A stretch of 64,000 bases of DNA, from NCBI RefSeq assembly GCF_026410385.1, contig NZ_JAPMLT010000003.1:1-64000 (forward strand), given 5' to 3'. How positions within the stretch are numbered: the first letter of the stretch is position 1; each line of letters opens with the position of its first letter. This DNA is from Tumebacillus lacus. Lineage in GTDB: Bacteria; Bacillota; Bacilli; Tumebacillales; Tumebacillaceae. The notes under the pieces were generated by a model. That model saw only the letters and a program-made list of their open reading frames with translations. It was not told where the DNA came from and searched no databases. Positions 10,207 through 32,855 of the stretch are shown here, one piece after another. Made by a program: the position numbers and the translations under genes.

Positions 10207-11169
10207 TTACTTCAACAGGTACACTTTTACATCTTGCATCCCGAACTGACGCAGTTCGGCCTGCGTGCCGTCGATGTAGATGTCGATGCGGTTGCCTTTG
10301 ATCAGGCCGCCGGTGTCTTCAGCGGTGGCGACAAATCCGCCTGCCGGAAGCAACGGGGAATTGTAGCCGGTCACCCAGACTTTCGAGCCGAGCGGGATCA
10401 CGTTCGGGTCGACTGCGATCACGCCTTCGCGGACTTTGGTGCCCGTGAAGGTGTGGCCGCCCCATTGCCACATGATGTTGCCCGGGCCGTATGCGGATGC
10501 GGTGGCCGACAGTTGCTTGCTGTAAGCCATGCCTGCAATGGTCGGGGCAGCTGGCTTGGCTTCCACCGGTTTCGCATCAGCCGGTGCCGGTGCTGCCGGA
10601 GCCGGCGGCGGGGTCGGGCGCGCGGCAGTCGGTGCGGTGACGGCGGTCGCCGCATCTTTCAGTTGCTGCGACGGCTTTTGCACCGGAGCCGGGGCTACCG
10701 GAGCTTCTTGTTTCACCGCTTCTTTTGCTGCCGGTGCCTCTTGCAGCACCGGTGCTTTTGCCTCGACGGCCGGAGCGGTCTCTTGCTTGCCGACCGGGAT
10801 CGTGATCGTTTGGCCGGCAGTCAGTTCGGACGACTGAAGGCCGTTGAGGGTCTTGATGTCCTCGACGGTGGTGTGGTACCGATCAGCGAGGAACCACATC
10901 TCATCGCCCGCGTCGACTTTATAAGCGAGCGCGACGTTGAGCTGTTGACCCGCTTGGATCTGATCGGTGGTCAGGCCGTTTGCATATTTCCATTCGGAGA
11001 CGTCGGTGCCGTATTGCGCCGCCACTTCCGAGAGCGACTGTCCATGTTTGACGGTGACAGGACCGACACTGCTCATCGCAGCCGCCTCTGCTTCTTGCGT
11101 GTTGCTGAACAAAATCAAACCAGATGCAACGAGTGCACCTGCAGCGATCTTTTTCCAGTTTTTCATCAT
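10207..11169 (-). CDS. secreted LysM-3D domain cell-wall protein
   Basis: This 320-residue exported protein is probably a peptidoglycan-binding lytic enzyme. The signal peptide ends at EAEA. Two LysM domains occupy about residues 38-85 and 87-132 of the mature region (VKHGQSLSEVA, VDAGDEMWFLADRY). A Pro/Ala/Glu-rich linker of about 80 residues follows, then a C-terminal 3D domain with the three aspartates in AEDTGGLIKGNRIDIYI and an MltA-like double-psi barrel (TATAYGPGN-like start). The open frame begins seven codons earlier, but GGAAGGAG is best placed for the ATG at 11169. The c-di-AMP riboswitch in its leader agrees with this role, since the ligand commonly represses wall-hydrolase genes. 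Confidence 0.9.
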   Translation of the reverse strand: MMKNWKKIAAGALVASGLILFSNTQEAEAAAMSSVGPVTVKHGQSLSEVAAQYGTDVSEWKYANGLTTDQIQAGQQLNVALAYKVDAGDEMWFLADRYHTTVEDIKTLNGLQSSELTAGQTITIPVGKQETAPAVEAKAPVLQEAPAAKEAVKQEAPVAPAPVQKPSQQLKDAATAVTAPTAARPTPPPAPAAPAPADAKPVEAKPAAPTIAGMAYSKQLSATASAYGPGNIMWQWGGHTFTGTKVREGVIAVDPNVIPLGSKVWVTGYNSPLLPAGGFVATAEDTGGLIKGNRIDIYIDGTQAELRQFGMQDVKVYLLK

Positions 11170-11189
11170 TGCCTTGCACTCTCCTTCCA

Positions 11190-11322
11190 AAGCCTGCGGA
11201 GTTAGCTGCCGGGTTCGGGAGAAGGATTCCCGCTCGCTTTTTATTCAATCGTCATGCGAAAAAGCGAGTTCACCCCATTCTTGGTTCCTCCGCTCCTTTT
11301 CGAATGTGAGGATTCGGCTCGT
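11190..11322 (-). promoter_or_regulatory. c-di-AMP riboswitch (ydaO-yuaA type)
   Basis: On the reverse strand the leader contains the family's conserved blocks in order. These are CGGAGGAACCAAGAATGGGG, then GTGAACTCGC, a variable A/T-rich hairpin (AAAAGCGAG), AATCCTTCTCCCGAACCCG, and GGCAGCTAACTCCGCAGGC at 11191-11210, ending about 20 bases before the gene start. This matches the ydaO/yuaA consensus (GGGGGAACC...GGGGTGAAT, ATCC...CCCGAA.CCG.CAGCTAACC). In known cases c-di-AMP binding turns the gene off. The 3' blocks abut the ribosome site, so control could be at translation initiation. Confidence 0.9.
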
Positions 11323-11340
11323 TGTTGTGTGTTGTGAACG

Positions 11341-30579: not shown

Positions 30580-31383
30580 ATGAAGCATTTTGTCAGTGAG
30601 CATGGATCGGGCGTTCCGATTGTTTTTATACATGGGTTTGCCGGCAACTCGCGGACCTGGTTGCCGCAGGTGCGCGTATTTCAAAAAAAGTTTCGCGTGA
30701 TGCTCTATGACTTGCGCGGTCACGGCCGCACCGGCGGCAGCGAGCTCGACTGCTACACGGCCGAACTGTATGCCGACGATCTGGCGCAGGTGCTCGACGA
30801 GCGCGGCATCGAGTCGGCGCACATCTGCTCACTCTCGATGGGAGCGATTGTCGCGCAGGCGTTTGCTGCCAAATATCCGGAGAAAGTCCGGACGCTGACG
30901 TTGGCGGGCGGATTCTACACGATCCCGTGGTATTTCAAAGCGGTGATGAACGTGCTGAACCGGACGTTGACCAAAGTGTTGCCGCCGAGTATCATCGTCG
31001 CCATCGGCTCGCATGTGTTGATGCCGCGCCCGCGGGAAAAGGTCGGACGCAAAGCGTTCATCAAGGCCAGCCGGGACCTCGGCCCGCGCGAGTTTGAGAA
31101 GATCATCTCGTTTTTGACCAGCGCCGATGCCCGCGCATTGTGCCAGACGTTGCGCGTGCCGACGCATCTGATCTCCGGTGACGCCGACTATTGGTTCATC
31201 AAGCAGGTCCAACGGATGAAAGTCTGGATCGACGGGGCGAAAATGCACCTGCTCAAAGGCTGTGCCCACGTCGTGACCATCGAGCGATTTGCAGAGTTTA
31301 ACACGCTGTATCTGGGCATCATCGAGCAGTTCGAACACCAACAGCAGCAACGGCTCTCATCAGCGAAACCAAAAGCGATCTGA
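30580..31383 (+). CDS. alpha/beta-hydrolase
   Basis: This 267-residue cytoplasmic hydrolase has the oxyanion motif VFIHGFAGNSRTW, YDLRGHGRT, and the nucleophile elbow ICSLSMGAIVA (Ser in SLSMG). The late acid lies in LISGDADYWF and the His in LLKGCAHVVTIE, so the triad appears complete. Closest in style to esterases or enol-lactonases of the BioH/PcaD type; substrate unknown. AGGAGG is 6 bases from the ATG at 30580, so the long upstream frame is not used. Confidence 0.9.
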   Translation: MKHFVSEHGSGVPIVFIHGFAGNSRTWLPQVRVFQKKFRVMLYDLRGHGRTGGSELDCYTAELYADDLAQVLDERGIESAHICSLSMGAIVAQAFAAKYPEKVRTLTLAGGFYTIPWYFKAVMNVLNRTLTKVLPPSIIVAIGSHVLMPRPREKVGRKAFIKASRDLGPREFEKIISFLTSADARALCQTLRVPTHLISGDADYWFIKQVQRMKVWIDGAKMHLLKGCAHVVTIERFAEFNTLYLGIIEQFEHQQQQRLSSAKPKAI

Positions 31384-31397
31384 ATATACACCGCAGA

Positions 31398-31570
31398 AAA
31401 GGGACATGCTCCAGCAGCACGTCCCTTTCGCATGTACCAGACTGCCAGAATGCAGTCACCCCGCGAAAGGGACAGGCTCGGAGGGCACGTCCCTTTCGCA
31501 TGTACCAGACTGCCGGAATGCATTCACCCCGCCATCGGGATATGCCCGGACAGCATGTCCCTTTTTGTTC
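31398..31570. repeat. 68-bp tandem repeat, two hairpins per unit (three copies)
   Basis: Units begin with AAAGGGAC at 31398 and 31466, and the related TCGGGAT at 31536, exactly 68 bp apart by the GGG anchors (31401, 31469, 31537). The first 25 bases of each unit fold into a hairpin (GGGACATGCT/AGCACGTCCC in unit 1). Units 1 and 2 continue with a near-identical arm including CATGTACCAGACTGCC, which holds a second small hairpin GACTGC/GCAGTC. Unit 3 is cut after its first hairpin, which is followed by TTTTTG and can end the hydrolase transcript. This fills the space between two convergent genes. Confidence 0.85.
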
Positions 31571-31581
31571 TTGTTGCGAAA

Positions 31582-31612
31582 AAGACATGCCGTTTTTCTC
31601 AGCATGTCCTGT
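31582..31612 (-). terminator. intrinsic terminator of the Xaa-Pro peptidase gene, related to the 68-bp repeat
   Basis: GACATGC (31584-31590) pairs with GCATGTC (31602-31608). On the reverse strand the hairpin is followed by TTTTTC. The stem sequence is that of the neighbouring repeat hairpins, so it looks like a fourth, diverged copy. Confidence 0.75.
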
Positions 31613-31617
31613 TTTCT

Positions 31618-32724
31618 TTATTTTACTGCGAGGATCTGCAACTCTTTCGGGTACGAGGTGAGCACTTCGACACCGTCTTCGGTAACGAGCACGTCGTCCT
31701 CGATGCGCACGCCGCCGACGTTCGGAACGTAGACGCCCGGCTCGATGGTGAACACCATGCCCGGCACCAGCTCTTGTTCGTTTTTGCCGTGCATCGACGG
31801 GGTCTCATGCACCTCGATGCCAAGCCCGTGCCCGACGCGGTGCGTGAAATACTCGCCGTAGCCGCGCGCCGTGATCGTCTCCCTTGCAGCCGCGTCAATC
31901 GCCATCGCCGGCACGCCCGGTCGGGTCGCTGCGATCCCGGCCAGATTGGCCGCCAGCACCGTCTCGTAGATCTCGCGCTGCTGGTCGGTCGGCTCGCCGA
32001 CCATCACCGTCCGGGTGATGTCCGAGCAGTAGCCCTCATACACCGCCCCGAGATCGAGCAGCACCAAGTCGCCCGCCTGAATCACCCGGCTGCCCGGGCT
32101 CCCGTGCGGCAACGCGCTCTTTTCCCCGCCGAGCACGATGGTCGAGAACGAGGTGCCGCTCGCACCGTGACTCTTCATGGTCGACTCGATCACCGCGACG
32201 ATCTCCGCTTCCGTCTTGCCCGCTGCGATGGCGTTGATGCCCGCCTCGACGCCGCGGTCGGCGATCTGTGCCGCCTTTTTCATGATCGCGATCTCTGCCG
32301 CATCCTTTTGCAGGCGCATCTTCAGCAGCAACTCCTCGGCGGCCACCGATTTGGCCTCGCCAAACACCGTCTGGAGTTGCTCATAGCGCGCCACCGTCAG
32401 ATGCTGCTTTTCAATCGCCAACGCGCCAAACGGCCCGTCGCCGACCACGCTGCGCAGTTTTTCCATCGGGTCTTCCGTGTCGGACACCGTCACAATCGCC
32501 GACCGGAACCCGCTCTTTTCCGCTTCATTTTTCTCCAGCGACGGGATAAACAGCGTCGCCTCCCCGCTCGCCTGCAGGCACAACGCCATGAACCGCTCAT
32601 GCGGATGGCAGTCAAACCCTGTCAGGTAAAACACGTTCGGCGGCGACGTCACCAGCGTCACGTCCACCCCGTTCTCCGCCATCCACTCCCGGATGCGGGA
32701 CAATCTCGTCTCAAAAATCGTCAT
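31618..32724 (-). CDS. M24-family Xaa-Pro peptidase
   Basis: This 368-residue aminopeptidase P-like enzyme cleaves N-terminal residues before proline. The creatinase N-domain includes NVFYLTGFDCHPHERF. The pita-bread domain carries the metal ligands: Asp in VLLDLGAVYEGYCSD and CSDITRTV, His in THRVGHGLGIEVHE, and Glu in FTIEPGVYV and VRIEDDVLV. GGGAGG is 9 bases from the ATG at 32724; an ATG two codons earlier is too close and the 26-codon extension is excluded. Monocistronic. Confidence 0.92.
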   Translation of the reverse strand: MTIFETRLSRIREWMAENGVDVTLVTSPPNVFYLTGFDCHPHERFMALCLQASGEATLFIPSLEKNEAEKSGFRSAIVTVSDTEDPMEKLRSVVGDGPFGALAIEKQHLTVARYEQLQTVFGEAKSVAAEELLLKMRLQKDAAEIAIMKKAAQIADRGVEAGINAIAAGKTEAEIVAVIESTMKSHGASGTSFSTIVLGGEKSALPHGSPGSRVIQAGDLVLLDLGAVYEGYCSDITRTVMVGEPTDQQREIYETVLAANLAGIAATRPGVPAMAIDAAARETITARGYGEYFTHRVGHGLGIEVHETPSMHGKNEQELVPGMVFTIEPGVYVPNVGGVRIEDDVLVTEDGVEVLTSYPKELQILAVK

Positions 32725-32855
32725 CCTCATCGTCCTCCCTTTCCTAAACAGTTCCACTTTCCCGCGCGGATTCCCTGCTGCCCACGTTTGCATCCGCACC
32801 ATTTCATGGCATACTGAAACTACCGAATCCCCAAAAGAGAAGGGAGGTCGCCGCG

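Follow-up and report, generated by a model that had tools for sequence, protein, structure and literature searches.

Tandem copies of a probable two-way terminator between convergent genes of Tumebacillus lacus

In this study, we analyzed a 64,000-nucleotide stretch of the Tumebacillus lacus genome, referred to here as the window, and found that the gap between two of its convergent genes probably holds a two-way (bidirectional) intrinsic terminator that has been tandemly duplicated in this lineage. A sequence-only reading of the locus had suggested that a terminator may have been duplicated, and this is the best reading of the array, its hairpins and their tails, considered with the single hairpin in three relatives.

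An alpha/beta hydrolase gene and an M24 family peptidase gene converge on the gap (31384-31617, 234 bp), which is flanked by their two stop codons and thus lies where intrinsic terminators do, just after a gene's stop codon. The array begins 14 bp past the end of the hydrolase stop codon (31383). The features are as follows.

30586..31383, plus strand: alpha/beta hydrolase gene; 30586 may not be the true start, and 30586-31380 is the part searched
31398-31465: unit 1, full 68 bp
31398..31428, unstranded: unit 1 hairpin (AAAGGGACATGCT...AGCACGTCCCTTT), its 10 stem pairs mismatch-free only as minus strand
31429..31465, unstranded: unit 1 linker, with a possible 6-bp stem GACTGC/GCAGTC
31466-31533: unit 2, full 68 bp
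31466..31496, unstranded: unit 2 hairpin, 2 mismatches in 10 stem pairs on either strand
31497..31533, unstranded: unit 2 linker, 34/37 bases identical to unit 1, linker stem broken
31537..31561, plus strand: hairpin 3, tail TTTTTGTTCTTG, probable intrinsic terminator of the hydrolase gene
31584..31608, minus strand: hairpin 4, minus-strand tail TTTTT, probable terminator of the peptidase gene and possible diverged copy
31618..32802, minus strand: M24 family peptidase gene, ORF as listed; 31621-32730 is the part searched

TRF placed the array at 31398-31564 (period 68, 2.5 copies, 84% matches, score 234). Three units at 68-bp spacing had been described earlier, and the hairpins at 31401-31425, 31469-31493 and 31537-31561 are indeed exactly 68 bp apart, but only two of the units are full; the third is a hairpin in register that lacks the linker after it. 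The fourth hairpin that had been noticed behind the array is present at 31584-31608, off register: it starts 47 bp after hairpin 3 rather than 68, and may be unrelated to the array.

The hairpins differ in strength and in tails. Folded as pieces that differ slightly in length and ends, they reached -16.1 (plus) and -24.4 (minus) kcal/mol for unit 1, -26.0 and -23.6 for unit 2, a strand preference opposite to that of unit 1, -14.4 and -12.6 for hairpin 3, and -11.9 and -16.7 for hairpin 4. An A x C mismatch in the plus-strand stem of unit 1 becomes a G.U pair on the minus strand. The hairpins of units 1 and 2 were more stable than shuffled sequences on both strands (z -3.9 to -5.8), as was hairpin 4 (z -4.1 on plus, -5.0 on minus); hairpin 3 gave z -2.6 on plus and was weakly better than shuffles on minus (z -2.0, 9 of 200 shuffles as good). 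Unit 1 has the tails TTTCGC (plus) and TTTTCT (minus), and hairpin 3 has TTTTTG (plus) and GATGGC (minus), a U-tract on plus only. Past GTCCC there are only 3 T in unit 1 on plus and in unit 2 on either strand; with only 3 T on plus, hairpins 1 and 2 may not terminate at all.

A G+C-containing stem-loop followed directly by a U-tract, the form of an intrinsic terminator, was found in hairpin 3 on plus (TTTTTGTTCT) and in hairpin 4 on minus (TTTTT), in line with the opposed U-tracts reported by the sequence-only reading. Two terminator scans differing in tail and loop rules, neither of them a census, returned 231 and 335 sites in the same 400 kb. Within the array, the first detected hairpins 3 and 4 on plus and nothing on minus, and the second detected hairpin 3 on plus and, on minus, both unit 1 (TTTTCT) and hairpin 4; unit 2 passed as terminator-like on neither strand in either scan.

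A second copy of the linker differs at 2 of 36 bases, a match found in none of 100 or more shuffles. Two hairpins per unit had been proposed for this repeat. Folding weakly favored a second hairpin in unit 1 (-9.1 kcal/mol on plus, z -2.0, 7 of 200 shuffles as good; z -0.9 on minus), but the linker stem is gone from unit 2, where no such hairpin formed (-4.4 on plus, z +0.5; z -0.4 on minus, with another fold).

Selection on structure had also been proposed, from stem changes described as partly compensated. The bases had been read correctly (T.G, A-T and T-A in unit 3; C-G, A x C and T-A in unit 1), but the changes are one-sided and at different pairs, and at none of the 11 pair positions compared did both bases change to give another standard pair. 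Variation in the ten-pair stem falls at positions 5, 6, 7 and 10, the last being T-A, T.G and C x A. Under a random model that assumed a perfect ancestor and 1, 3 and 2 stem changes across the three units, the 26 pairs kept on plus and the 27 kept on minus, out of 30, were unremarkable, with a random mean of 25.2 on plus and P of 0.35 (plus), 0.11 (minus) and 0.10 (sum), three units giving little power. Selection argued from compensation is therefore not shown by these units. The kept pairs are likewise what a neutral tandem duplication of intergenic DNA including a terminator would leave, with copies 1 and 2 idle, an account to which we give an even chance and which overlaps the best explanation, differing only in whether the extra copies matter. 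Between units 1 and 2, the linker, with no shared structure, is kept as well as the hairpin (3/37 vs. 6/31 differences, Fisher P 0.28), which also speaks for neutrality; on the other side, unit 1 retains on the minus strand a stem without mismatches and a tail of 4 T, and passes there as terminator-like.

The same gap was compared across seven genomes of the family. The M24 peptidase was found in all seven and the hydrolase in four, T. lacus included, at the cut-offs used; hydrolase matches at 76-78% identity (30586-31380) were present in each of the three genomes searched from the sister genus. Outside T. lacus, both genes were found in three genomes, one of them Tumebacillus avium; by eye, the gap there holds one terminator-like hairpin of the type AAAAGCCATCC...GGATGGCTTTTT, bordered by an A-run and a T-run, and its stem sequence differs from that of the array. 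Three congeners gave no hydrolase match at E 1e-30; there the peptidase has other neighbors, and 1-2 terminator-like hairpins of other sequence were seen by eye. Among the genomes searched, the array is thus particular to that of T. lacus, which represents one strain of the species.

The sequence-only reading had considered that the terminator may seed a dispersed repeat family, and had asked for the genome and its relatives to be searched with the unit. The 236-base region had no second copy in its own genome, where nine matches of 15-37 bases were left at E of at least 0.86, one being the array matched to itself, and no match at E 0.01 in three congeners; for the two full units, a search of 13 other genomes of the order, with these congeners included, yielded no copy. 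At up to 3 mismatches, the linker occurs in its own genome only twice, both times in the array. The outer-stem pattern AAAGGGAC-N6-24-GTCCCTTT was found 2-9 times per genome in all seven family genomes, compared with 0 for the reversed control. The interiors listed differ within each genome, and one is common to the three sister-genus genomes, as expected of an orthologous terminator. An outer stem of this type thus reads as a usual one for terminators in Tumebacillaceae. On the copy, linker and outer-stem searches, a dispersed repeat family was rejected for the genomes searched.

REP/REPIN elements are short intergenic palindromes with many dispersed copies and a RAYT transposase. The array could be a member of such a dispersed palindrome family, mobilized by a REP-associated tyrosine transposase, and its short GGGAC-based palindromes in intergenic DNA would suit this, as would the similar outer stems at three other places among the five pattern sites of the genome (the other two are the array units). 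However, these three places have different interiors and lie by eye just past ORF ends with T-rich tails, the linker is confined to the array, and Y1_Tnp (RAYT) had no match at E 0.001 in any of the seven family genomes, T. lacus included (rated 95.7% complete); the control search was positive in 5 of 14 known genomes. Neither many dispersed intergenic copies nor a RAYT gene was thus found, and a REP/RAYT origin, which we consider extremely improbable, was refuted at the sensitivity used. A mobile-element origin was also rejected: two weak matches of 32 bases, in Methylobacterium and under a gene for urate hydroxylase (E 0.7), were all that the plasmid collection gave, and the phage collection gave no match to the array at E 1. 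We class the array as a local peculiarity of a single bacterium rather than as a new family of repeats.

Another explanation is a small structured RNA or a stabilizer of mRNA 3' ends, the row of hairpins being kept for a role of its own, such as protection against 3' exonucleases or the buffering of polymerases that converge. In its favor, the fold of the 236-base region is much more stable than those of shuffles (z -5.9; 0 of 200), but adjacent palindromes alone can probably yield such a z-score. Furthermore, no Rfam family matched the array at gathering scores, no sigma-70-type promoter-like site was found within the gap, and the 13 other genomes of the order hold no copy. We regard these roles, taken together, as quite improbable.

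Only two Rfam matches were obtained in the window, both away from the array. One is a c-di-AMP riboswitch (ydaO/yuaA leader) at 11176-11329 on the minus strand (88 bits), and a 33-bp imperfect tandem repeat lies at 10694-10761, about 400 bp from it. The other is SSU rRNA, a 16S rRNA gene whose 5' part lies at 1-353 on the minus strand (model positions 1-344 of 1533), cut at the left edge of the window, which is the first base of contig C20.

For the duplicated two-way terminator, the following history may be proposed. Given that the single hairpin of the relatives has a different stem sequence, we infer the ancestral form, a AAAAGGGACATGCT-loop-AGCATGTCCCTTTTT hairpin, which with about 37 bp of flank would have been copied side by side. 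Hairpins have a role in replication slippage, and slippage is the probable route of the copying. Over 14 bp, the 5' arm of unit 1 is perfectly complementary to the 3' arm of hairpin 3, as expected if the two arms descend from one palindrome. After duplication the inner copies would have decayed, leaving hairpin 3 to end plus-strand transcripts, hairpin 4 to end minus-strand transcripts, and hairpins 1 and 2 as weak back-ups or relics. Pairing is complete in unit 1 only as minus-strand RNA, is better on plus in hairpin 3, and is better on minus in hairpin 4, whose U-tract adjoins the stem there; this asymmetry of stems and tails fits either ordinary decay or a division of labor between the strands. 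Subfunctionalization, in which a duplicated two-way terminator was split by strand, seems to us unlikely on the sequence at hand. The array matters little by itself; a strand split, if true, would offer a small clean example of duplication freeing a shared two-way terminator from a double constraint.

Tandem arrays with a period of at least 25 numbered 12 in 400 kb of C20, the 68-bp array included, and 4 in 400 kb of C12. Terminator-like sites were overlapped by 4 of the 12 (random mean 2.0, P 0.12) and by 0 of the 4 (random mean 0.8). The idea that terminators are hot spots of tandem duplication was dropped, since overlap was not above random placement in the 800 kb sampled, and the terminator duplication described here thus needs no special explanation. 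At C20:186946-187104, a 79-bp unit is present in two copies (88% alike); the repeat ends by eye at the palindrome AAAGGCCCCTCCT...AGGAGGGGCCTTT, uncounted by the terminator scan, its right edge being the 5' arm of this long-loop palindrome and the left copy having a degraded arm. Outside the window, C20:125694-125877 carries 4.8 copies of a 38-bp unit. By eye, the final copy forms a perfect hairpin resembling a two-way terminator (AAGAAGCCGCCG...CGGCGGCTTCTT), and the earlier copies keep much of the 5' arm and the loop with a degraded 3' arm. Like the array between the hydrolase and peptidase genes, this array of the same genome consists of tandem copies, closed by a strong hairpin resembling a two-way terminator, but it has a different period (38 bp), unrelated sequence and, by eye, a full hairpin only in the last copy.

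Compared with known systems, the array resembles REP/REPIN elements in being made of short intergenic palindromes, and differs from them in occupying a single locus, with no dispersed copies and no Y1_Tnp match in seven family genomes. A literature search on tandem, duplicated or bidirectional terminators returned no title on tandem-duplicated native terminators. The closer likeness is to bidirectional intrinsic (Rho-independent) terminators: PMC1852404 describes two-way terminators with A and T runs on their flanks and tail-to-tail gene regions, and PMC5381666 reports that terminators in Bacillus cereus undergo compensatory evolution and that two-way ones show higher conservation than terminators of co-oriented genes. 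The T. lacus gap shares with these the order of A-run, hairpin and T-run between tail-to-tail genes; unlike them, it holds several tandem copies, which are asymmetric between the strands.
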